Source: Burkholderiales bacterium (GTDB taxonomy: Bacteria > Pseudomonadota > Gammaproteobacteria > Burkholderiales > Burkholderiaceae_E). Taken from it: a stretch of DNA of 64,000 nucleotides. Location: assembly GCA_026399835.1 (NCBI GenBank), contig JAPLQE010000057.1, positions 62,001-126,000 on the forward strand, read 5' to 3'. Positions 3,251 to 62,093 of this stretch are shown here, piece after piece. A program made the position numbers and the translations under genes. Below the pieces are notes generated by a model. The model saw only the letters and a list, made by a program, of their open reading frames with translations. It was not told the origin of the DNA and ran no database searches. The first letter of the stretch is position 1, and every line of letters starts with the position of its first letter.

Positions 3251-3501
3251 TCGTAGGCCTCCGCACGCGTTGCGATCCGGATGACGATGACGATCAAGGC
3301 GCCACGATCGAGTTCGTAGACGACCCGCCATTCCCCGACACGCAGGCGATAGGCGTCGAGACCGACCAGCGGCCGAACGTGACGTGCACGATCCGGGTCG
3401 GCCGCGAGCCGCTCCAGAGCCGAGCGGATCGCGATCGATACCTTCGGCGGCGCCCGTCGCAGCGCCTTGATCGATTGCCGACTGAACTCGATCCGATACA
3501 T
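3247..3501 (-). CDS. RelE/ParE-superfamily toxin
   Basis: An 84-residue RelE-fold protein: N-terminal [15 protein letters not shown], central [22 protein letters not shown], and a terminal beta-strand ([12 protein letters not shown]). The GxYRLRVGxxRVVY pattern is the hallmark of RelE-type mRNA interferases and the related ParE gyrase poisons. Length and basic character fit. The ATG at 3501 is the first in the frame. It is the first gene of a two-gene operon and overlaps the XRE-type antitoxin by four bases. RelE-like ribosome-dependent mRNA cleavage is the likelier activity, inferred from sequence pattern only. Confidence 0.88.
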
Positions 3502-3813
3502 GGATCGAGCATAGCTTTCGGAAATTCTCTCACGTTGCTGAGCGCTACGCCATCCGTGCTAGGCAGGACGATCGAGACCGCCTCCCGGACGGCGTCAGCG
3601 GCCGCGCCGACGCTCGAGCGTGTTCTTGGAGAGCAGGAAGAAGATGCGTTCGATCCGACGGTCGAGGGCGGCGAGCAGGGAGGACATGGGAGGGCCGTTC
3701 TTCAAAGGGCCCCGATCATGCCTGATCGCTCCCGCCCCTACGTTGCGCACGGTCAAGCCTGTCTGCCGCACGCGCCGCGCCCGGTCCCGCCGGGCGCCCC
3801 TTCGGCACGCCGC
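3502..3813 (+). other. intergenic region between aceE 3' end and relE toxin, no convincing gene
   Basis: These 312 bp separate the end of the aceE-like gene from the toxin start. It should hold the promoter of the relE/xre operon near 3502-3560 (minus strand). The only small frame I noticed is 3595-3687 on the minus strand (30 codons, starting [11 protein letters not shown]), which lacks a good ribosome-binding site. I see no repeat or RNA gene here. Confidence 0.5.
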
Positions 3814-6573
3814 TCAACGCTGCCAGGGCGCCTCGCCGCCCGCGAGCCGCGCCCGCGCCTTCATGAGCGACCCCGCGTCGGCCCGCCCCTGCGCATGCAG
3901 GGCGTGCACCGCGGCATGCGCGATCGACGCCGCGTCGACCTCGAAGAACGCGCGCAGCTCGGCCCGCGTGTCGCTGCGACCGAAGCCGTCGGTGCCGAGC
4001 ACGACGTAGCGCCGCTGGCGCGGCACGAACGCCCGGATCGACTCGGGCACCGCGCGCACCCAGTCGCTGACTGCCACCACCGGCGCGTCCGAGCCGGCGA
4101 GCATGCGCTCGACGTGCGGCACGCCGCCCGCGCCGTCGAGCCGCGCCGCGCGCTCGCAGGCCGCGCCGTCGCGGGCGAGCTCGCTCCAGCTGGTGGCGCT
4201 CATCACCTCGGCGGCCACCCCGTGCTCGGCGGCGAGCAGTTCGGCGGCAGCGGTCGCCTCAGCGAGCAGCGAGCCACTGCCGACGAGGGTGACCCGGGGC
4301 GCGTCCGAAGGCAGCTCCGTCGGCGCAGGCCGCGCGCGATACAGGCCGCGCAGCAGGTCCGCCTCGACCCCGGCGGGCAGCGAGGGCTGCGGCTGGTTCT
4401 CGTTGCCGACGGTGACGTAGTGGAAGACGTCGCGCTGCTGCTCGAGCATCTCGCGCATGCCGTGCTCGACGATCACCGCGAGCTCGCCCGCGGTGGCCGG
4501 ATCCCACGCGCGGCAGTTCGGCACGGTGGCCGCGACCAGGTGCGAGCTGCCGTCCTGGTGCTGCAGGCCCTCGCCGCCCAGCGTCGTGCGGCCGGCGGTC
4601 GCGCCGATCAGGAAGCCGCGCGCCCGCTGGTCGGCCGCGGCCCAGATCTGGTCGCCGACCCGCTGGAAGCCGAACATCGAGTAGTAGATGTAGAACGGCA
4701 TCATCGCGAGGCCGTGCACCGAGTACGAGGTCGCAGCCGCGGTCCACGAGGCGAGCGCGCCCGCCTCGGTGATGCCCTCCTCGAGGATCTGCCCGTCGGT
4801 CGCCTCGCGGTAGTACAGCATCGAGCCGATGTCCTCGGGCTCGTAGCGCTGGCCGACCGAGGACCAGATGCCCACCTGCCGGAACAGGTTCGCCATCCCG
4901 AAGGTGCGCGCCTCGTCGGCGACGATCGGCGCGATGCGGGGCCCGAGCGCCGGATCCTTGAGCAGGTTCCCCAGCATCCGCACGAAGGCCATCGTGGTCG
5001 ACATCTCGCGCCCGTCGGCACCCAGCGCGAACTCGCCCCAGCGCGCCAGCGGCGGCACCGGGACCGGCTCGCAGGCCGCCACGCGTGCGGGCATCGCACC
5101 GCCCAGCGCCTCGCGGCGCTCGCGCAGGTAGCGCATCGCGGGCGCCTCGTCGACGGGCTTCGCGAACTCGAGCGCCTCGGCCTGCGCATCGGTGATCGGC
5201 AGCCGGAAGCGGTCGCGGAACGCGATCAGCGCGTCGCCGTCGAGCTTCTTCTGCTGGTGCGTCGTCATCCGGCCCTGGCCGGCGCTGCCCATGCCGAAGC
5301 CCTTCTTCGTGTGCGCGAGGATCACCGTCGGCCGCCCGACGTGGCGCGCGGCCGCGTGGTAGGCGGCATAGAGCTTCACCGGGTCGTGGCCGCCGCGGGT
5401 GAGGCGGTCGATCTGCTCGTCGGTCATGCCCTGCGACAGCGCGCGCAGCGCCTCGTTCTGGCCGAAGAAGCGCTCGCGGTTGAACTTGCCGTCGGTGGCC
5501 GCGAGGGTCTGGAACTGGCCGTCGACCGTGCCGTCGAAGGCGTCGATCAGCGCACCGTGCACGTCGCGTGCGAGCAGGCCGTCCCAGTCGCTGCCCCAGA
5601 CCAGCTTGATCACGTTCCAGCCGGCGCCGGTGAACAGCGCCTCGAGCTCGTCGACGATGCGGCCGTTGCCGCGCACCGGTCCGTCGAGCCGCTGCAGGTT
5701 GCAGTTGACGACGAACACCAGGTTGTCGAGCCGCTCGCGCGCGGCCAGCGTCAGCGCGCTCATCGACTCCGGCTCGTCCATCTCGCCGTCGCCGAAGATG
5801 CCCCAGACCTTGCGCTGCGCCGCATGGCCCTCCTGCCCGGCGAAGCCCACGTGCGCGAGCAGGCCGCGGGTCTCGAGATAACGGATGAAGCGGGCCTGGT
5901 AGATCGCGCTGATGGGGCCGATGCCCATCGAGCCGGTCGGGAACTGCCAGAAGTCCGGCATCAGCCACGGATGCGGATAGCTCGACAGGCCGCGGGCGCC
6001 GGCGGTGGGCGCGGACAGCTCGCGGCGGTAGTGCTCGAGGTCCTCGGCGCGCAGGCGCCCCTCGAGGAAGGCACGGGCGTAGACGCCGGGCGCGGAGTGC
6101 GGCTGGAAGTAGACCAGGTCGCCGTGGAAGCCGTCGCGCCGCGCGCGGAAGAAGTGGTTGAAGCCGGTCTCGAACAGGTCCGCCGCCGATGCGTACGACG
6201 CGATGTGGCCGCCGAGCTCGCCGTGCGCGCGGTTGGCGCGCACCACCATCGCGAGCGCGTTCCAGCGCATCAGCGCCGACAGCTCGCGCTCGAGCTCGAG
6301 GTCGCCGGGGAACGGCGGCTGCTCGGTGACCGGGATGGTGTTCACGTAGGGCGTGGCGAGCGCCGGCCGCCAGCGCAGCCCGCCGCGCGCCGCGTGCCGC
6401 TGCAGCGCATCGAGCAGGAAACGCGCGCGCTCGGGTCCGGCGTGCTCGACCACCGCCGCCAGCGACTCGACCCACTCCGCGGTCTCCTGCGGATCGGCGT
6501 CGGCCTGGGGTTCGCGTGGCGACACGCCGCTCGCAGGGGTGTGGAGCGCGTCGAGACGCAAGGGGGCGTTCAT
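3814..6573 (-). CDS. aceE: homodimeric 2-oxoacid (pyruvate) dehydrogenase E1 component, AceE family
   Basis: A 919-residue homodimeric-type E1 (E. coli AceE is 887). It decarboxylates a 2-oxoacid with thiamine diphosphate and hands the acyl group to a lipoyl E2. The thiamine/Mg motif starts with GDGEMDE at about residue 261; the active-site loop segment HTKKGFGMG and the transketolase-like central and C-terminal domains are intact. ATG at 6573 follows a GGAG site. No E2 or E3 gene lies nearby. It is divergent from an Lrp/AsnC regulator, an arrangement also known for MdeB-type 2-oxobutyrate dehydrogenase E1 near methionine gamma-lyase. The substrate could therefore be pyruvate or 2-oxobutyrate; control by the adjacent Lrp is inferred. 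Confidence 0.85.
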
Positions 6574-6699
6574 GGGGGAGGTCTCCGCATCGTTGTCCGG
6601 ATGGTATGCCGCAGCGGACCGTCGATGGTGCCGTGCTTGGCCCCGCTTGGCGGGCGTGGCAGCATAGCGTGCTTCGGAACCATCGATCTGCACAACAAT

Positions 6700-7239
6700 A
6701 TGCCGCTGGATGCCATCGACCTCGCGATCCTGTCCGAGCTGCAGCGCGACGGCTCGCTGTCGAACGTCGAGCTCGCCCGCCGCGTGAAGCTCTCGCCCTC
6801 GCCGTGCCTGGCCCGCGTGCGAGCGCTCGAGGAAGCGGGAACGATCCGGCGCTACGTGGCGCTGGTCGATCCCGAGGCGCTCGGCCTGGGCGTGTCGGTG
6901 TTCATCTCGATCAGCCTGCGCGAGCAGAACACCGCGACGCTGGCCGAGTTCGAGCGGCGCATCGGCGCGCACGAGGAGGTGATGGAGGCCTACCTGATGA
7001 CCGGCGACGCGGACTACCTGCTGCGGGTCGTCGTGCCGGACATCCGCTCGCTCGAGCGCTTCATCCTCGAGCGGCTGTCGCCGATTCCCGGCGTCGAGAA
7101 GATCCGCTCGAGCTTCACGCTCAAGCAGGTCCGCTACAAGACGGCGCTGCCGCTGCCGACGACGACCGTCAGGGCCGCGCGTGCGTCGGCGAAGGCGGGC
7201 GCGGCGCCTGCGCCGCCCGCTTCGCGGCGCAGGCGCTGA
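6700..7239 (+). CDS. Lrp/AsnC family transcriptional regulator
   Basis: A 179-residue feast/famine regulator. Residues about 1-50 form the AsnC winged HTH ([17 protein letters not shown], then [19 protein letters not shown]); residues about 70-150 form the RAM/Lrp ligand-binding domain ending in the usual [19 protein letters not shown]. The last 25 residues are an Ala/Arg-rich tail. The ATG at 6700 has no clear Shine-Dalgarno sequence, so the start is less certain than the family call. It is divergently transcribed from the E1 gene with 126 bp between starts, the classic position for a local amino-acid-sensing activator or repressor. Confidence 0.92.
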
Positions 7240-7319: not shown

Positions 7320-8576
7320 ATGCCCGACTCCCCGAACCGCTCCGCCCCGACGCCCGCCGCCCACGCCGCGCCGTTCCCCATCGACGACACCGTCGGCGCC
7401 TGGGTCCCGCACGGGCGCTTCATGCGCGCCGGCGCACCCGGCGGCCCGCTCGCCGGCCTGCGCTTCGCAGCGAAGGACCTCTTCGACGTCGCCGGCCGGG
7501 TCACCGGCGCGGGCAACCCGACCTGGCTCGACACCCACGGCCCCGCGCCCGCCGACAGCCCGCTCGTGGCCGCGCTGTCGGCGGCCGGGGCGACGCTCGT
7601 CGGCAAGGTGCTGACCGACGAACTCGCATTCAGCCTGCACGGCGCGAACGTCCATTACGGCACGCCGCTCAATTCGCGCGCGCCCGACCGGGTGCCGGGC
7701 GGCTCCTCGAGCGGCTCGGCGAGCGCGGTCGCGGCGCGCCTGGTCGACGTCGCGCTCGCCACCGACACCGGCGGCTCGACGCGGGTGCCCGCGAGCTACT
7801 GCGGGATCTGGGGGCTGCGCACCACGCACGGACGGCTGTCGACCGAGGGCCTGGTGCCGCTGTGCCCGTCGTTCGACACGCCGACCTGGATGGCCGACGA
7901 CGCCACCGTGTTCGCGCGCGTCGCCGACGTGCTGCTCGCCGACGGCGGGCCGGACGCGGCCGGCTGGCATGCGCGCCGCGTGCTGCGGCTCGACGACGCC
8001 TGGGCACTCGCCGACGAGGCCTTCCGCGATCCGCTCGAACGCGCGCTCGCGGCGCTCGGCGCGTCGCTCGACGCACCGGTGCAGGCGCGCCGCGCCGCCG
8101 ACGACGGCGCCGTGCTGGACGACTGGCGCCGGGCGTTCGTGACCGCCAGCAGCCACGAGGCCTGGGCCGTGCACGGCCCGTGGATCGAGCGCCACGCCCC
8201 GCGCTTCGGCGACGCGATCGCGGCCCGCTGGGACGTGGCGCGCCGCGTCGGCGCGGCCGACGCCGAGGCTGCCCGTGCGCGGCTCGCCGGCATCCGCGCC
8301 ACGGTCCGCGCGCTGCTCGGCGACGACGGCATCGCGGTGCTGCCTTCGGCCGCGACCGTCGCGCCGCGCCGCGACGACGACGCGCCGACGGTCGACGCGA
8401 TCCGCATGCGCACGCAGGCGATCACCTGCATCGCCGGCATCGCGGGGCTGCCGCAGGTGAGCCTGCCCTGGCCGCGTGCCGAGGGCGCGCCGCTCGGTGT
8501 CTCGCTGCTCGGTCCGGCAGGCAGCGACCGGGCGCTGATCGCGATCGCGACACGGCTGCGCGACGCGCTCGGCTGA
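7320..8576 (+). CDS. amidase (amidase-signature family)
   Basis: A 418-residue amidase-signature hydrolase. The Ser-cisSer-Lys triad is visible: Lys52 in AAKDLFDVAG, the cis-Ser in GGSSSGSA (residues 127-134), and the nucleophile Ser153 in DTGGSTRVPAS. The family hydrolyses amide bonds of small carboxamides, biurets or acylated amines; the substrate cannot be read here. It starts 80 bp after the Lrp-type regulator on the same strand, so it may be co-transcribed or co-regulated. Length is slightly below the usual 450 but all core motifs are present. Confidence 0.88.
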   Translation: MPDSPNRSAPTPAAHAAPFPIDDTVGAWVPHGRFMRAGAPGGPLAGLRFAAKDLFDVAGRVTGAGNPTWLDTHGPAPADSPLVAALSAAGATLVGKVLTDELAFSLHGANVHYGTPLNSRAPDRVPGGSSSGSASAVAARLVDVALATDTGGSTRVPASYCGIWGLRTTHGRLSTEGLVPLCPSFDTPTWMADDATVFARVADVLLADGGPDAAGWHARRVLRLDDAWALADEAFRDPLERALAALGASLDAPVQARRAADDGAVLDDWRRAFVTASSHEAWAVHGPWIERHAPRFGDAIAARWDVARRVGAADAEAARARLAGIRATVRALLGDDGIAVLPSAATVAPRRDDDAPTVDAIRMRTQAITCIAGIAGLPQVSLPWPRAEGAPLGVSLLGPAGSDRALIAIATRLRDALG

Positions 8577-8674
8577 CGGCACACCCGCGCGACGGCACGA
8601 TCCCGCGGGCGGGTCGGGACCACAAACGCGCGCCCGTCGCGGGCGAGCCGCGCGGGCTCGGGCATCATCGCAGG

Positions 8675-10534
8675 ATGCCCGGCCGCTTCCCCGCTCTCGC
8701 CCACCGCGAGTTCCGCCGCTACTTCACCGGCCAGGCGATCGCGCTCGTCGGCGGCTTCGCGCACAACGTCGCGATGGCCTGGCTCGCGTACCGGCTGACC
8801 GGCTCGGTCGCGGTGCTCGGCGTGGTCGGCTTCGCGCAGGCCGCCCCCACGGTGCTGGTCGCGGTGGCGCTGCTGCGCGGCCTGGCCTTCGCCTTCGAGA
8901 TCCCGATCCGGAACGCCTTCCTCGCCGACATCGTCCCCGACCGCACGGCCTTGCCCAACGCGGTCGCGCTGCATTCGAGTGCGCTCAACGGCGCGCGCTT
9001 CATCGGCCCGGCGATCGGCGGCCTGATGATCGGCGCCGTCGGCGAGGCCGCCTGCTTCCTGCTGCATCCGCTGACGCTGACCGCGACCCTGGTGCAGCTC
9101 GTGCGCATCCGCACCAACGAGTCGGCGGTGCGCCGCGCGAACCCGGGCTCGTTCCTCGTGCAGTACGCCGAGGGGTGGAAGCAGGCATTCTCGGACCCGA
9201 CCGTCGCACGCATGATCGCCGGCGTCTTCCTCCTCGGCTTCGGCGTCGGGCCGTATTCGCACCTGATGCCGGCCGCGGTCGCCGAGCTGCACGGCGCCCA
9301 CCCGGAGTACGTCGGGATGTTCCTGTCGAGCGCGGGGCTCGGCGCGATGCTCGCCGCGATGACGCTGGCCGCCCGCCGCTCGCGCGACGGGCTGCCGGCC
9401 ATCGCGATCGCAGGCAACGCGATCGCGGCCGCGGGGCTCGGCGCGATGCTCGCCGCGATGACACTGGCCGCCCGCCGCTCGCGCGACGGGCTGCCGGCCA
9501 TCGCGATCGCGGGCAACGCGATCGCCGCCATCGGGCTCGCGGTGTTCGCGCTCGCAGCGTGGATGCCGCTCGCGATCGCGGGCATGGTCACCGTGGGGAT
9601 CGGGACGATCGCGCAGGCCGTCACCACGAACATGTCGATCCAGCTGCGCGCACCCGAGGACAAGCGCGGCCGCGTGCTGGCGATCTACACCGCGATGTTC
9701 ATCGGCTCCACGCCGATCGGCAGCCTGTTCTTCGGCTGGGTCGGCCAGGCGATCGGCGCGGCAAACGCGCTGCTCGCGGGCGCCGCGCTCGCCGGTGCGG
9801 TCGCGGGCTGCGCGCTGCCCGGCGTCGCGTCGACCTCGCCGAAGACCCCGTTCACGGTGCCCGACACCACCGTGCCGATCGTCGGCAGCGAGCTGGTGTT
9901 CCCGGTGCGCCGCATCTACTGCATCGGCCGCAACTACGCCGCGCATGCGCGCGAGATGGGCAGCGACCCGACACGCGAGCCGCCGTTCTTCTTCCAGAAG
10001 CCGACCGACGCGATCCAGTTCGTCGCGCCCGGCACGGTGGCCGACCATCCGTACCCGCCGCTGACCAAGAACTACCACTACGAGGTGGAGCTGGTCGCGG
10101 CGCTGTCGAGCGGCGGGCGCAACATCCCGACCGCGCGCGCGCTCGACTGCGTCTACGCGTACGCGCTCGGCCTCGACATGACGCGCCGCGACCTGCAGCG
10201 CGCGATGGGCGACGAGAAGAAGCCCTGGGAGATCGGCAAGAGCTTCGACCGCTCCGCGCCGATCGGCCCGTTGCACCTCGCCACGCGGACCGGCCACTTC
10301 ACGCAGGGCAACATCTGGCTGAAGGTCAACGGCCAGACGAAGCAGAACGCGGATCTGAAGCAGATGATCTGGAACGTCGCCGAACAGATCTCGCGGCTCT
10401 CGGAGGCCTTCGAGCTCTTCCCCGGCGACATCGTCTACTCGGGGACGCCGGAGAACGTCGGGCCGGTGGTGCGCGGCGACACGATCGAGTGCCACATCGA
10501 CGGGCTGCCGAACCTGTCCGTGAAGATCGTCTGA
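8675..10534 (+). CDS. in-frame fusion: rearranged MFS transporter + fumarylacetoacetate hydrolase (FAH) domain
   Basis: One uninterrupted 619-codon frame. Residues 1 to about 390 resemble an EntS/MFS_3-type transporter (REFRRYFTGQAIALVG, then FEIPIRNAFLADIVPDR, ALNGARFIGPAIGG). Two abnormalities are seen: the segment that should hold TM2-TM3 and motif A is missing after FAQAAPTVL, and a 33-residue block is duplicated in tandem (bases 9332-9529). From about residue 393 the frame continues without a stop into a complete FAH domain (FPVRRIYCIGRNYAAHAREMG region from residue 409; metal ligands in YEVEL and GLDMTRRD). FAH-family enzymes cleave beta-diketones or decarboxylate oxaloacetate-like acids. 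A GTG near 9859 could start a separate FAH protein. The transporter half is probably non-functional; the FAH half looks intact. Confidence 0.75.
   Translation: MPGRFPALAHREFRRYFTGQAIALVGGFAHNVAMAWLAYRLTGSVAVLGVVGFAQAAPTVLVAVALLRGLAFAFEIPIRNAFLADIVPDRTALPNAVALHSSALNGARFIGPAIGGLMIGAVGEAACFLLHPLTLTATLVQLVRIRTNESAVRRANPGSFLVQYAEGWKQAFSDPTVARMIAGVFLLGFGVGPYSHLMPAAVAELHGAHPEYVGMFLSSAGLGAMLAAMTLAARRSRDGLPAIAIAGNAIAAAGLGAMLAAMTLAARRSRDGLPAIAIAGNAIAAIGLAVFALAAWMPLAIAGMVTVGIGTIAQAVTTNMSIQLRAPEDKRGRVLAIYTAMFIGSTPIGSLFFGWVGQAIGAANALLAGAALAGAVAGCALPGVASTSPKTPFTVPDTTVPIVGSELVFPVRRIYCIGRNYAAHAREMGSDPTREPPFFFQKPTDAIQFVAPGTVADHPYPPLTKNYHYEVELVAALSSGGRNIPTARALDCVYAYALGLDMTRRDLQRAMGDEKKPWEIGKSFDRSAPIGPLHLATRTGHFTQGNIWLKVNGQTKQNADLKQMIWNVAEQISRLSEAFELFPGDIVYSGTPENVGPVVRGDTIECHIDGLPNLSVKIV
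9332..9529 (+). repeat. 99-bp tandem duplication (two copies) inside the MFS part
   Basis: Bases 9332-9430 and 9431-9529 are two head-to-tail copies of a 99-bp unit, starting GCGGGGCTCGGCGCGATGCT and differing at about three bases. The unit length is a multiple of three, so the frame is kept and 33 residues are repeated (AGLGAMLAAMTL...NAIAA). The few differences sit at third codon positions, suggesting a recent duplication. Confidence 0.95.
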
Positions 10535-10585
10535 GAAGCCGCGAGTAAACCTACTGCGCGTCCCGATCCGACGCCTGCGGTGCTC

Positions 10586-10603
10586 GCCGTACTCACGTAC
10601 GGC
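10586..10603. terminator. inverted repeat between convergent genes
   Basis: GCCGTAC-TCAC-GTACGGC is a perfect 7-bp stem with a 4-base loop, between the FAH stop (10534) and the DMT-transporter stop (10647). The surrounding text resembles a palindromic intergenic element I recall from other Burkholderiales genomes, usually between convergent genes. It lacks a T-tract on either side, so a bidirectional-terminator role is inferred. Confidence 0.35.
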
Positions 10604-10646
10604 TGCGCTCCTCGACGCCGGCTCGGGCCTGCTCGCTACGGCTTCC

Positions 10647-11600
10647 TCACGGCTTCCGCGCAGCTTCCGGCGCCGGCGCCGCGCGCAGCGAGCGCCACTG
10701 CATCCACGCCACGCCGGCCAGCACCACCGCGCCGCCCAGCACCTGCGAGGCGCTCGGCACCACGCCGTAGCCGACCAGCGAGATCAGCACCGCGAACACC
10801 GGGATGGTGTTCTGCCACATGCCACCGGCGGCGATGCCCAGGCGCGCCACGCCGGTGTTCCAGGCCACGGTCGCGAGTGCGGTGCAGACCACGGCCGACA
10901 CCACGAGGCTCACGAGCGTGCCGGCGTCCGGCGACAGGTTGGGCGCGGGTGCCAGGCCTGCGGCGCGCGCTGCGCCCCAGACTGCGATCAGCCACGGGAT
11001 CGCGCCCAGCGAGGTGAGCCAGGTCCGTCGCAGCTGCGGCACGTCGGGACGGAACCAGCGCTGCGCGAGGATCGAATAGACGGTCCAGCAGGCGATCGAG
11101 CCGACGAGGAACGCCTCGCCGCCCTGCAGCCGCAGCCCCGCGCCGGCGCCGCCCGCCTCGATGCGGCCGTGCACCGCGATGCCGGCCCCCACGAGCGTCA
11201 GCGCGGTGGCGGTCCAGAAGCCCGGCGCCAGCCGCGCGCCGGTCATGGCCCGCATCACGACCGCCACGTAGACCGGCGAGCCGGCGATCACCGCGGCGGC
11301 GGTGACCGGATGCGTGTACAGCAAGCCGAGATTGAAGAGCAGCAGGAAGCCACTGACCAGCAGGCTCAGGCCGGCGATGCGCGAGAGCGCGATCGGCGAG
11401 CGCAGCTGCCGCGGTCCGAGCGTCACAGCGACCCACGCGCCCAGCGCCGCCGCTGCGATCAGGTAGCGGCTCGTCGGCAGCCAGAACGGATCGAAGGATC
11501 TGAGCAGCGCCGACGACAGAGGGATGTTCAGGCCCCAGAAGAGGCTGCAGGCGAGGTAGCACAGCGAGCCGACGAGGGCGGCGGACGGCGGGCGCGTCAT
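10647..11600 (-). CDS. DMT superfamily (EamA) transporter
   Basis: A 317-residue inner-membrane protein with about ten hydrophobic helices arranged as two EamA repeats (SLFWGLNIPLSS opening helix; second repeat from about residue 160, ACWTVYSILAQRW). EamA proteins mostly export amino acids or small metabolites. The ATG at 11600 overlaps the stop of the CobQ remnant (ATGA), showing the two were once a coupled pair. The tail ends in an Ala/Pro/Arg-rich stretch. Substrate unknown. Confidence 0.85.
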   Translation of the reverse strand: MTRPPSAALVGSLCYLACSLFWGLNIPLSSALLRSFDPFWLPTSRYLIAAAALGAWVAVTLGPRQLRSPIALSRIAGLSLLVSGFLLLFNLGLLYTHPVTAAAVIAGSPVYVAVVMRAMTGARLAPGFWTATALTLVGAGIAVHGRIEAGGAGAGLRLQGGEAFLVGSIACWTVYSILAQRWFRPDVPQLRRTWLTSLGAIPWLIAVWGAARAAGLAPAPNLSPDAGTLVSLVVSAVVCTALATVAWNTGVARLGIAAGGMWQNTIPVFAVLISLVGYGVVPSASQVLGGAVVLAGVAWMQWRSLRAAPAPEAARKP

Positions 11601-31901: not shown

Positions 31902-32399
31902 ATGAAGCAGTCCACCTCGATTCCGATCTCGATGCGGCTGGCAGCCGCGATGACCGCCGGAGCACTCGCGGCCTGCGGCGGTGGCGGCGAGCCTGCGACC
32001 GGCGCACCGACCGCCGGCGCACCGGCTCCGGCGGCCGCACCCGCCGCGTCGCCGGCGCCGGCCCCGGCGCCGTCGGCAGCACCGGCTCCGGCGACCGATC
32101 CGGCGACCGCCCCGGCCCCCGCCCCGGCGCCCGCCCCGGCGCCCGCCGCGGTCGCAGGCGACGCGGTGCGCGGCAAGCAGATCTACAGCGACCTGCCCAA
32201 TACCGCCTTCGCCTGCTCGCAGTGCCACGGCGTGCCGAACCTGAACACCAGCAACATCCTGTCCGCTGCGGGCGACTGGCAGGTGATCTCCCGGGCCATC
32301 ACCGCCAACAAGGGCGGCATGGGTGCGCTCGCCTTCCCGGTCCTGACCGGCTACGACATGCAGGACATCGCCGCCTACCTGGCGCAGCCGAACCTCTGA
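31902..32399 (+). CDS. lipoprotein c-type cytochrome (2)
   Basis: A 165-residue paralogue of the preceding gene: lipoprotein signal ending AGALAAC, a longer linker of Ala/Pro repeats (APAPAPAPAPAA), and a heme domain with CSQCH (Cys105, Cys108, His109). Shared features include GDAVRGKQ(L/I)Y before the heme, a Met-containing GGMGALAFP distal segment, and DxxAYLAxP at the end. Start chosen at 31902, where the signal peptide begins; upstream codons in frame add a non-signal segment. Confidence 0.88.
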   Translation: MKQSTSIPISMRLAAAMTAGALAACGGGGEPATGAPTAGAPAPAAAPAASPAPAPAPSAAPAPATDPATAPAPAPAPAPAPAAVAGDAVRGKQIYSDLPNTAFACSQCHGVPNLNTSNILSAAGDWQVISRAITANKGGMGALAFPVLTGYDMQDIAAYLAQPNL

Positions 32400-37474: not shown

Positions 37475-38782
37475 ATGTCAGATACCCCTGCAGAAGGCCG
37501 CGACGCGGCCCCCGCCCCCCTGTTGTCGTCGGCAGAGCGCCGCACCTTGCGCGCCCGGGCCCACGACATCGATCCGGTCGTCATGATCGGCGACGCCGGC
37601 CTGTCCGATGCGGTGCTCGCCGAGACCGACCGCGCGCTGATCGCCCACGGGCTGATCAAGGTCCGCGTGTTCGGCGACGACCGCGACGCCCGCCAGGCCA
37701 TGGCCGCCGAGCTCGAGCAGCAGCTCGGCGCCGCGCTCGTCCAGGCGATCGGCAAGCTGATCGTGCTCTGGCGTCCGCGCCCGGAGGATACCGGGGTCGA
37801 GGGCACGCCGGCCAAGCCGCGCGCAGCGCCGCGCCGCAAGATGCTCACGGTGCCCAAGAAACTGGCTGCCGAAGGCAAGAAGCCGACGCAGCGCCGGGCC
37901 CGGCCCGGCGTGCCGCGCGAGCCCGAGCCGGTCGCCGCGCCGCGCCGACGCACCGGCCCGCCGGCCCACCGCGCCGGCCCCGGCATGCGCACGGGCACGG
38001 CCCGCGGCGCGCTCGATCCGTCGGTGGCCCGCGCGGTGTCCGGCGGCGCCTCGTCGGGCGTTCGCCCGGCGCGCGGCCCGGGCGCCCGAGACGGCGACTC
38101 GCCGCCGCGTCGCAGCGGATCGACGGGCGGTCGCGGTGCGCCGGCCGAGGGGCGCACGCCGCTGTCCGGCGTGCGCGGCCAGTCCTCGGCACGACCACCG
38201 GCCTCCGGCGCACGTCCCGGGACGGGCGCGCGCGGGCCGGGTGCAGGCGCGCGCGGTCCCGGTGATGGAGCTCGGGGGCCGGCGTCCGGTGCCAGGCCGG
38301 CGTCCGGCGCTCGGGGACCCGGCGCGGGCGCCCGCGGTCCGGGATCCGGCCCTCGCGGTCCGGGTGCTGGATTCGGCGGCCCCGCGACCGGCTCGCGCAC
38401 CACGGGCTCGGGCGGTCGGCCCCCGGCGGGCGGTGCACGCGGCCCGGCTTCGGATGCACGCGGCAGTGCTTCGGGTGCACGCGGCGGTGCTTCGGGTGCA
38501 CGCGGCGGTGCTTCGGGTGCACGCGGCGGTGCCGCGGGCGATCGCGGCGATGCGCCGCCGGCACGCGGCGCCCCGGCGCCCCGTGGCGGCGCGGGCTTCG
38601 GCGCCGGCACGGGCGCCCGCGGCGCGCCGCTCAGCGGCGCGGCACGGCGCACCTCAGCCAAGCCGTCCTCGGCCCGACCGCCCGGTCCGGCCCCGCGGGG
38701 CGGCGACCGGGGCGGCAGCACGCCGGCTACAGGTAGCGGACGTCCAGCACCTCGTACTCGCGGAGGCCGCCGGGGGCCCTGA
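37475..38782 (+). CDS. yhbY: YhbY/CRM-domain RNA-binding protein with a very long low-complexity tail
   Basis: Residues about 20-110 form a normal CRM (YhbY) domain ([50 protein letters not shown]), which associates with pre-50S ribosomes. The remaining about 325 residues are disordered: a Lys/Arg linker, then long Gly/Ala/Arg/Pro/Ser repeats ([12 protein letters not shown]). YhbY is usually near 100 residues; Burkholderiales often have an extension but this one is extreme. The tail overlaps the end of greA on the other strand by 56 bp. RGG-like composition suggests RNA binding. Confidence 0.8.
38435..38539 (+). repeat. five 21-bp tandem repeats in the yhbY tail
   Basis: Five consecutive 21-bp units beginning GCACGCGGC; the middle ones are identical (GCACGCGGCGGTGCTTCGGG plus T) and the first and last diverge. 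They encode seven-residue ARGGASG-type units in frame. Confidence 0.95.
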
Positions 38783-48327: not shown

Positions 48328-51300
48328 TCAGTCGCCCGGCATCGGCCCGCGATCGGGGCCGCCGAGGTCGACGTCGAACGCCACCTGCCCCGCGGCCGCA
48401 TCGACCAGAACCGTCCGCAGGCACCGCACCGGGCCGAGCGGCGGGGGCTCCAGGGCCTCGACCAGCGCCCGATAGCCGGCCAGCTGGACGACATACTCGG
48501 GCCGGCGTGCGGCGTCCACGGACCACTTGTAGTCGATGATCCAGACCTCGTCGCCCACCCGCGCGATCCGGTCGATGCGGCGCACCTCGCCGCCGGCGTC
48601 GATGATCTCGAACTCGCAGGCAGCCGGCGCGGCCCGCTCGAAGGCAGGCGCCAGCGGCACGAGCGCCATCACGCCGCGGGCACGCGCGAGCGCCGCCCGG
48701 CGCTGCCTGTCGTCGATCTCGAAGGCGTGCAGCGCGGCGAGGACGGTGTCCTCGTCGGCGCCCGCCGGCAGCAGCTCGAGCGCACGGTGCAGCGCATGAC
48801 CGAGCTCGGTGGCCAGCAGGCCCGCGGGCCGCCCGTCACGGTCGCGTTCGGCGCCGCCCTCACCCGGATCGCGGCGCGTGCCGACGTCGAGCCGCGACAG
48901 CTGCAGCAGGTGCATCGGGAACGGGGCATCGGCCGCGGCGGCGGCCTGCGCACGTACCCGGGCACGCCCGGCCCAGCCCGGCGGCTCGTCGACACCCTCG
49001 AGGAAGGTGTACCACGAGGCCTTGGGCGACTGGCGGTTGCGCGTGCCCGAGACGATCACGCCGAGCCGCGCGCGGGTGAGCGCGACATACAGCAGGTTGC
49101 GGTCCTCGCGCTCGCGCAGCACCTCCTCGCGCTCGAAGCTGTCGCGGCGTGCGCGGCCGGCGAGCGCGGCGCCCAGCACGAACGAGACCTGCGACGGACG
49201 CGGCAGCTCCGGCGACCAGTCGACATGCAGCCGCTGGCCATCGGGCTGGCCGCGACCGTGCGCATCGGCGAGCACCACCAGGTCGGCCTCGAGACCCTTC
49301 GAGCCGTGGATCGTCATCATCCGGATGGCGTCGACCGCATCGGCACGGCCCTCGCTCGGGCCCTCGCGGTCCTCGAGCGTGTCGAATCCGCGCAGCCTGC
49401 GCAGGAAGCGCGCCAGGCTCGGATAGCGGCCGGCGTCGACGTCGAGCGCCAGGCCCAGCATCGCGCACAGGTTGGCGTGCGCGACGTCGCGCTGCGCCGG
49501 CTCGACGGCCGCCGGATAGCGGGCGAACGCGTCGACCTGGGACAGCACGGCATCGAGGAAGTCGTGGACCGGCGCCCGCGCGGCGGCGTCGATCCAGCCG
49601 GAGACGAGGGCGACCACCGCGGCCGCGTCGAACGGAGGCGGGTCGGCGGGGTCCGACTCGGCGGCGAGGCGGCGCAGGCGCGGCCACCACCTGCGCGGCA
49701 TCGGTGCCTCGGAATCCTCGCTGTCCGCGGGATCTCCGGTGTCCGCGGGATCGCCGGCGTCCCCGGGGTCGCCGGCGTCCCCGGGGTAGCCGGCGTCTTC
49801 GGGATCGCCGGCGTCTCCGGGGTCGCCGGCGCTTTCCGGTGCTCCGACGCCCTCGGGGTCGCCAGACAGGCCCACGCTCCCGACGGCCGGAGCCCCAGGC
49901 CGGGCCGGCGCCGCCACCTGCGGGCCACGCGCCGCGATCCAGGCGATCGATGCGGCATCGAGCCCCACCAGCGGCGAGGCGAGCACCTGTGCGAGCGCGA
50001 GGTCGTCGGACGGACGCCGCACGAAGCCGAGCAGCGCACGCAGGTCGTCGCCCTCGAGCGTGCGCAGCAGACCACCGGCACGGTCCGACTGCACCGGCAG
50101 GCCGCGTTCGCGCAGCGCGCGCTCGTACGCCTCGAACCCGCTGCGGCTGCGCGCGAGCACGTAGACCTCGCGCCAGCTCAGGCTGCGGCCCTGGGCGGCG
50201 AGCGCATCGCGCGCGAGCAGGATCGCATCGGCGATCGCCTCGCCTTCGCGATGCCGCAGCGAGGCCTCGTCGTCACGGGGCGACGTCAGCCAGTCGAAGG
50301 GCTCGGCACCGGCGCCGGCGACCGCGTCCGCCTCGATCAGCGGCAGCCGCCAGGCGAAGCCGGGCGGACCGGCCGCGGCCGTGGCCTGCTCGCGGTAGTG
50401 CGCCATCCACGGGGGCAGGCAGCGGTTGAGCACGTCCACGATCGCACGCGCGTTGCGTCGCGTCGTGTCGGTGCCCGCCTCGCGCGCGCGGAAGCCTTCG
50501 CGCAGCAGCGCCTTGGCGGCGTCGAACACCCGCGCCTCGGCGCGCCGGAAGCGGTAGATCGACTGCTTGGGATCGCCGACGACGAAGACCGACGGACGCT
50601 CGCCGGCGCCCGCATAGGACTGCAGCCAGTCGGCGATCACGCGCCACTGCAGGCTGCTGGTGTCCTGGAACTCGTCGAACAGCAGGTGCCGGTACCGGCG
50701 GTCCATCCGGCACTGGACATACGCCGCGGTGCCCGGGTCGCGCAGCATGCGCCAGGCGATCGACTCGAGGTCGGCGAAGTCGATCACGCCCTGCGCCCGC
50801 TTCGTCCGGCGGAACGCCTCGAGCAGCCCGACGCCGCAACGCATCGCGGCGGCGTTCAGACCGACCGCGCGCCACTCGTCGAGCAGCGCGCGCGCATTCG
50901 CGATGCGCCCGCACAGCGCCTGCCAGCGCGCGATCAGGGGTGCCGCGCCGCCGGCCGCCGCGAGCGCGGCGTCGAGCGCCTTGCTCGGGCGCCAGGCCCG
51001 CGGCTCGCCCCGGGCGGTGAGCACGGTCGCGTGCAGCGCGTCCAGCCAGCCGTTCGCGGCGGCGTCGTCCGCGCAGTCCCGATCGGCGAGCTCATCGAGC
51101 GCGAGCGCGAGCGTGCGCGTGGCATCCGAGCCGCACTCGAGCACCAGGGCGATCGCGCGCAGCTCGCCGCGCAGGCCGGCCTCGGCAGCGATCGCGCGCA
51201 GCAGCGCAGCCTCGTCATCGGGCACAGCCTCGTCGTCGGGCGCAGGTTCGTCGTCGGGCGCGGCCTGGTCGTCGGAGGCCGGCTCATCCTCGCGCGCGGG

Positions 51301-61517: not shown

Positions 61518-62093
61518 TCACTGCGCGGCCGTCAGCCGGAAGAAGTGCTCGCGGTAGTGGCGCAGCTCGTCGATCGATTCCTCGATGTCGGCGAGCGCCG
61601 TGTGCGCGCTGCGCTTGGCGAAGGCCTTGGCGACCTCGGGGCGCCAGCGCTTGCACAGCTCCTTGACGGTGGACACGTCGAGGTTGCGATAGTGGAAGTA
61701 CGCCTCGAGCTCGGGCATGGTCCGCGCCATGAAGCGGCGGTCCTGGCAGATCGAGTTGCCGCACATCGGGGACTTGCCCGGCGGCACCCAGGGGCGCAGG
61801 AAGTCGATCAGCAGCGCCTGCGCCTCGGTCTCGGTCACGGTGGAGGCGCGCACTCGCTCGGTCAGCCCGGAGCGCCCGTGCGTGGCGGTGTTCCAGGCGT
61901 CCATCGCGGCCAGCACTGAATCCGGCTGGTGGATGGCGAACACCGGCCCCTGCGCGAGGACCTCGAGATTGCCGTCTGTGACGACGACCGCGACCTCGAT
62001 GATGCGGTCGACCTCGGGCCGAAGCCCGGTCATCTCCATGTCGACCCAGACCAGGTGGGTTTCGTTCGGCGAGGCGGGAAGGGGCTGTGACAT
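61518..62093 (-). CDS. orn: oligoribonuclease
   Basis: A 191-residue DEDDh 3'-5' exonuclease: WVDMEMTGL (Asp-Glu), the second Asp in [10 protein letters not shown], and [11 protein letters not shown] (His and last Asp). It degrades RNA dinucleotides, including pGpG from c-di-GMP turnover. Full length; divergent from the M48 protease gene. Confidence 0.98.

Follow-up and report, generated by a model that had tools for sequence, protein, structure and literature searches.

The Fused Reading Frame

The window analysed here is a stretch of 64,000 nucleotides (positions 62,001 to 126,000 of contig C63) from the genome G000, which comprises 4.95 Mb in 93 contigs and is 97.95% complete; among named matches, the best come from metagenome-assembled genomes of Burkholderiales (loci L038 to L040). 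On the forward strand, positions 8675–10534 form one reading frame of 619 codons and a stop that is open throughout, from ATG to TGA. Pfam recognises two kinds of domain in the encoded protein, a transporter of the MFS type (MFS_3, PF05977, 110.1 bits against a cut-off of 27; MFS_1, PF07690, 65.8 bits against a cut-off of 33.4) and a hydrolase (FAA_hydrolase, PF01557, 166.2 bits), the latter at residues 414–618 (9914–10528) and covering profile positions 2–213 of 214. The single in-frame MFS–FAH frame announced in a preliminary description of this DNA is thereby confirmed, and the transporter is indeed an MFS protein, but the label “EntS-type” fits only loosely, the EntS equivalog model (PRK10489) giving 54.7 bits where its cut-off is 324.

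Read along the forward strand, the frame consists of an MFS-derived part (8675–9800, residues 1 to about 375), the MFS/hydrolase join (9794–9803), the remnant of a hydrolase leader with a lipobox-like VAGC (cysteine 379) and a linker (9801–9853), and the complete hydrolase domain. The length of an open frame alone proves little here, since DNA as GC-rich as this often contains long open frames; one of 1286 codons lies at 3379–7239, and in it Pfam sees just a C-terminal Lrp/AsnC regulator. Both halves of the fused frame derive from real genes.

Three Rearrangements Relative to Intact Genes

Of 259 relatives found, 80 loci were retained for comparison, three of them MFS genes (L038–L040) and 77 hydrolases (L041–L117). 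The closest relative found is locus L038 in the genome G008, at about 95% nucleotide identity, where contig C147 carries an intact MFS gene of 399 residues (4001–5200) with its own stop codon at 5198–5200. The MFS protein of L039 (G010) likewise has 399 residues and its own stop, and that of L040 (G005) has its own stop and neither the deletion nor the duplication described below. The intact L038 protein is hit by the same Pfam models (MFS_3, 172.8 bits; MFS_1, 118.8 bits), has the same start as the fused protein, and is identical to it at 93–97% of the residues in the parts that they have in common; at the DNA level, the aligned MFS blocks are 93.3–96.0% identical, and the two main blocks 95.7–96.0%. 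The window copy differs from this MFS_3 exporter in lacking 46 residues, in carrying a duplication of 33 residues, and in having no stop codon of its own.

The first of these changes is the loss of 138 nt (46 residues) after residue 57. In L038 a 15-nt sequence stands at either end of the stretch that is missing from the window, as two direct copies that differ by one mismatch and are spaced by 138 nt; comparison with that locus shows that a single copy of the repeat remains in the window as the scar of the deletion (8846–8860, forward strand). According to the alignment with L038, the lost residues include the cytoplasmic 2–3 loop DRYPRRR, which presumably is MFS motif A; if the helices are numbered correctly, the end of TM2, this loop and TM3 would have gone. 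The second change is a tandem duplication of 99 nt (9331–9528, forward strand, 97% identity between the copies) that adds 33 residues and is present as a single copy in L038, L039 and L040. By the same tentative numbering the duplicated residues would represent the end of TM8, an RRSRDG loop and the start of TM9. The copies differ at three of the 99 sites, all three synonymous, and when L038 is taken as ancestral, copy 1 alone carries two of the changes and copy 2 alone the third. The duplication is therefore not brand new, and it may have been under constraint since it arose.

The third change is the join itself. DNA identity to the MFS gene of G008 stops at 9800, and identity to the separate hydrolase genes of G001 and G004 starts at 9803. 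What has gone comprises the final codons of the MFS gene with the stop, together with the hydrolase start and the arginine-containing front of its leader. At the duplication and at the MFS/hydrolase join, short homologies can be made out by eye. The preliminary description had offered two readings, i.e., a chance fusion after loss of the MFS stop codon or a new membrane-tethered hydrolase. A chance fusion has more support than the alternative, but a simple loss of the stop is ruled out: the join was made by a deletion that took away the end of the MFS gene, the spacer and the front of the hydrolase. Also ruled out is the union of two whole proteins, because the MFS part lacks the 46 residues and its last codons and carries the duplication, and the hydrolase lacks its start.

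All three rearrangements keep the frame. After a deletion that removes the stop of the MFS gene and the start of the hydrolase gene, one third of joins will be in frame by chance, and for the three changes together the chance would be about 1 in 27 if the frame were irrelevant, a figure to be read with the fact that the finding was selected for its open frame.

Such a concentration of changes raises the alternative that the contig is chimeric, i.e., that an error of assembly or binning joined strain variants, or reads, at short repeats, and that the organism has ordinary MFS and hydrolase genes. This explanation has to be taken seriously, if with less confidence than a real fusion. In its favor, three rearrangements fall within about 1 kb, and nothing comparable was seen outside a simple repeat in the eight other blocks of the window that could be aligned to G008 (about 23.4 kb). 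There, the only insertions or deletions of at least 40 nt measure 44 and 102 nt, and both lie in one 18-nt tandem repeat (about 49720–49863); the blocks were taken at a minimum of 80% identity and 150 nt, filters by which the MFS blocks themselves drop out, and changes at block ends are uncounted. The repeat at 49720–49863 is about 174 nt (28 + 44 + 102) longer in the window than in G008. The three synonymous differences between the duplication copies are also what two strain haplotypes might show. Moreover, 20 other stretches of G000 (389,199 bases, about 8% of the genome) yielded no tandem repeat of period 60 or longer with a score of at least 100, and contain two of period 45 and 48 at that score; elsewhere in the window there are two such tandem rows, one of period 60 at 32011 and one of period 63 at 38435, each within an array of short-unit repeats. 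On the other side, the preservation of the frame by all three changes speaks against a chimera, and the direct repeats at the ends of the deletion fit real slippage.

The Transporter Half

The full set of MFS helices with the 2–3 loop is no longer present in the window protein. From the loss of the MFS core around TM2–TM4, the membrane part would be unable to transport, and, judged from its sequence, the transporter half is probably dead. A hydropathy scan gave nine hydrophobic segments in the fused protein and ten in the intact relative, the scan being coarse and prone to under-counting. Structure prediction yielded a mean pLDDT of 31.8 for the fused protein (4 sequences) and of 36.6 for the intact MFS protein that served as control (3 sequences), both too low to be informative on the fold.

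Neither dN/dS nor hand-mapped codon counts showed clear decay of the MFS part through point mutations. The dN/dS between the window and L038 is 0.175, close to the 0.165 between L038 and L039. When codons were mapped by hand and polarised with L039, the window branch received 15 synonymous and 4 nonsynonymous changes and the L038 branch 8 and 3, with 4–5 synonymous changes unplaced. A cruder automatic count, which includes the join codons, gave 17 synonymous and 12 nonsynonymous changes for the window and 11 and 3 for L038; we take this nonsynonymous excess to stem mostly from the join and from the placement of gaps. The selection results fit a protein that was recently joined or is still used, and they fit just as well a chimeric contig made from two normal genes, in favor of which the near-normal dN/dS can also be counted.

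The Hydrolase Half

For the hydrolase part the nearest solved chains are 6j5y_A (8.1e-83, “FAA hydrolase family protein”) and 4maq_A (2.5e-66, “Putative fumarylpyruvate hydrolase”). Alignment of all rows together put the MFS rows onto the hydrolase, and the hydrolase rows alone were therefore used. None of the 127 near-invariant positions is changed in the window protein; in a leave-one-out control, 57 of the 77 homologues likewise showed no change. E470, E472 and D501, which we take to be the probable metal ligands of FAA hydrolases, are near-invariant in this alignment. The enzyme had been described beforehand as complete and equipped with its metal ligands, and the near-full profile match and these three residues bear this out. 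As far as its sequence can tell, the hydrolase half looks intact, with the full domain of the fumarylpyruvate-hydrolase-like family.

FAA hydrolases are usually regarded as cytoplasmic. The homologues are separate proteins: all 77 have their own start (picked by a script) and measure 261–300 residues, with a median of 264. In every one of them the first 28 residues contain RR, KR or RK (RR in 62), and 67 of the 77 have a strict lipobox-like motif, features which suggest a leader of the Tat or lipoprotein type. This leader-bearing family is found mostly in Burkholderiales, and a search of the open-licence literature turned up no paper that joins the FAH family, twin-arginine and signal peptide. 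Four of the homologues (L048, L079, L091 and L098) lie in stop-free frames of at least 500 codons; they were considered as further fusions and rejected, because Pfam finds FAA_hydrolase alone in them. In the window, the end of the MFS part replaces the front of the leader, so that a leader of this type with its own start was lost at the join and only its hydrophobic end with VAGC survives.

An intact enzyme behind a shortened transporter might be a working membrane-tethered hydrolase, in which the MFS part serves as an anchor, the hydrolase sits at the membrane and the frame is kept by selection. The unchanged near-invariant positions, the in-frame nature of every insertion and deletion and the lack of a clear nonsynonymous excess in the MFS part would agree with this, and the export- or lipoprotein-type leader of the homologues means that a membrane-linked place is not foreign to the family. 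Nevertheless, nine hydrophobic segments make a costly anchor, G000 has other FAA-hydrolase paralogues, and none of the other genomes examined has the same architecture; the second of the two readings in the preliminary description is accordingly improbable. Still further down in likelihood is a specific version in which the cell makes and uses the fused protein: the in-frame loss around TM2–TM4 and the added helix would alter the number of membrane passes, and the former last MFS helix with the VAGC end of the leader would act as a signal-anchor of the hydrolase. The hydrolase would thereby come to lie on that side of the membrane to which its ancestors were exported, and a few slippage steps would have converted a transporter into an anchor.

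Least probable of all is that the hydrolase is translated separately, as a cytoplasmic protein, from an internal GTG of the fused frame, with the MFS part as a decaying leader. In-frame GTG codons do stand just before the conserved domain, from 9857, but no ribosome-binding sequence is evident by eye before them, and the 77 homologues begin upstream with a leader.

The Neighbourhood of the Locus

The genes on either side appear sound, which weighs against a chimeric contig: gap-free alignments were obtained for the amidase with G008 and for the EamA gene with G010 and G011. In G010, G011 and G005 the MFS and EamA alignments are about 95–140 nt apart, without room for a hydrolase between them, from which we infer that the hydrolase entered there in the lineage that G000 shares with G008. 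In G008, G010 and G011 the amidase and the MFS gene are separated by 3.1–3.2 kb that contain cydA in all three genomes (in G008, a marR-like gene and cydB were also identified in this block); this segment is absent from the window, its site being 8577–8609. Nor was cydA found anywhere in the G000 assembly, by a search that detects it in seven of 11 congeners. The missing block just upstream and the missing cydA make the locus look rearranged, and since the absence of cydA extends beyond this contig to the whole assembly, it favors a real rearrangement over an artefact. Structural change is concentrated at this locus.

The sibling locus L038 is itself unusual. About 70 nt after the MFS stop, at the very end of the contig, it carries a piece of hydrolase (corresponding to residues 529–544 of the fused protein) of which the preceding part is missing; by eye, L038:5201–5317 shows an apparent ribosome-binding sequence and a hydrolase front, then a jump into the middle of the hydrolase, and there the contig ends. 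This odd join from front to middle may be a second deletion or a contig-end artefact, and the fact that a sibling contig also ends in such a way can be counted in favor of an assembly error in the window.

Directly 3′ of the hydrolase stop lies a dispersed intergenic repeat of about 122 nt (10535–10656, forward strand), with at least 15 matches in G000, at least 28 in G011, at least 15 in G008 and at least 11 in G010 (E 1e-15), and none in the eight other congeners at that E value among the up to 40 candidates scored per genome. It contains an inverted repeat; folded as single-stranded DNA it did not stand out from shuffled versions, with a z of −1.29 and 19 of 200 shuffles as good. Rfam had no match at the gathering score in 8500–10900.

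Occurrence of the Architecture

Of 74 genomes of the family that were searched, 70 gave some match to a query of 169 residues across the join, and the window alone covered this query end to end. In the other genomes the matches on the hydrolase side begin at residue 53 of the query or later, and the earliest of them (in G088) has an internal stop. In 61 genomes of the genus, family and order, no sequence outside G000 spans both parts among the matches listed, and none of the 989 plasmid records with a match covers at least 80% of the query. The best plasmid match, from Shinella, is an annotated separate hydrolase gene between transporter genes, and hence no fusion. Recurrence in more than one lineage, as expected of an established MFS–FAH architecture, was not observed in these searches, and a fusion of an MFS protein with a fumarylacetoacetate hydrolase was not found in the open-licence literature, where the matches were unrelated by their titles. 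Close relatives in which the two genes are always separate, combined with raw reads that lack the fusion, had been named beforehand as evidence against it; the relatives do have separate genes, with an MFS stop in G008, G010 and G005 and a hydrolase start in every homologue.

Probable Origin of the Fusion

The most probable explanation, to which we would give a probability of roughly one half, is an in-frame fusion private to the G000 lineage that arose by deletions at short homologies and that has a dead transporter half. An artefact of assembly ranks close behind. Deletions between adjacent genes that point in the same direction remove the stop of the first gene, the spacer and the start of the second, and thereby fuse two frames. 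The window shows the same losses, and differs from such deletion fusions in having two additional in-frame rearrangements in the upstream gene.

By the account of a private fusion, the common ancestor of G000 and G008 would have had a separate hydrolase gene with an export leader just downstream of an intact MFS gene. In the G000 lineage, a deletion that ran from the MFS tail across the spacer into the hydrolase front would have united the two frames. Inside the MFS gene, slippage between short direct repeats would have removed 138 nt and duplicated 99 nt; the order in which these events are given is likewise a reconstruction. If the sequence is right, one polypeptide should be made from the conserved MFS start, its expression and its location in the membrane being presumed. 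A helical membrane part would then carry an apparently intact fumarylpyruvate-hydrolase-like enzyme, and this enzyme would hang on the last MFS helix, merged with the hydrophobic end of the old leader (LLAGAALAGAVAGCALPGV). Against a fusion with a dead half stand the absence of clear decay by substitution, the synonymous-only differences between the duplication copies and the preservation of the frame, all of which fit a protein still in use or an assembly chimera.

For genome mining, the case is a caution that an unprecedented architecture which appears in a single GC-rich draft genome should be believed only after comparison with relatives and inspection of the reads. The finding would gain in importance only with proof that cells produce the fused protein and put it to use. 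Provided that the sequence is correct, the locus offers a snapshot of a gene fusion by short-homology deletion, taken while a relative at about 95% identity still keeps the intact, separate MFS gene.
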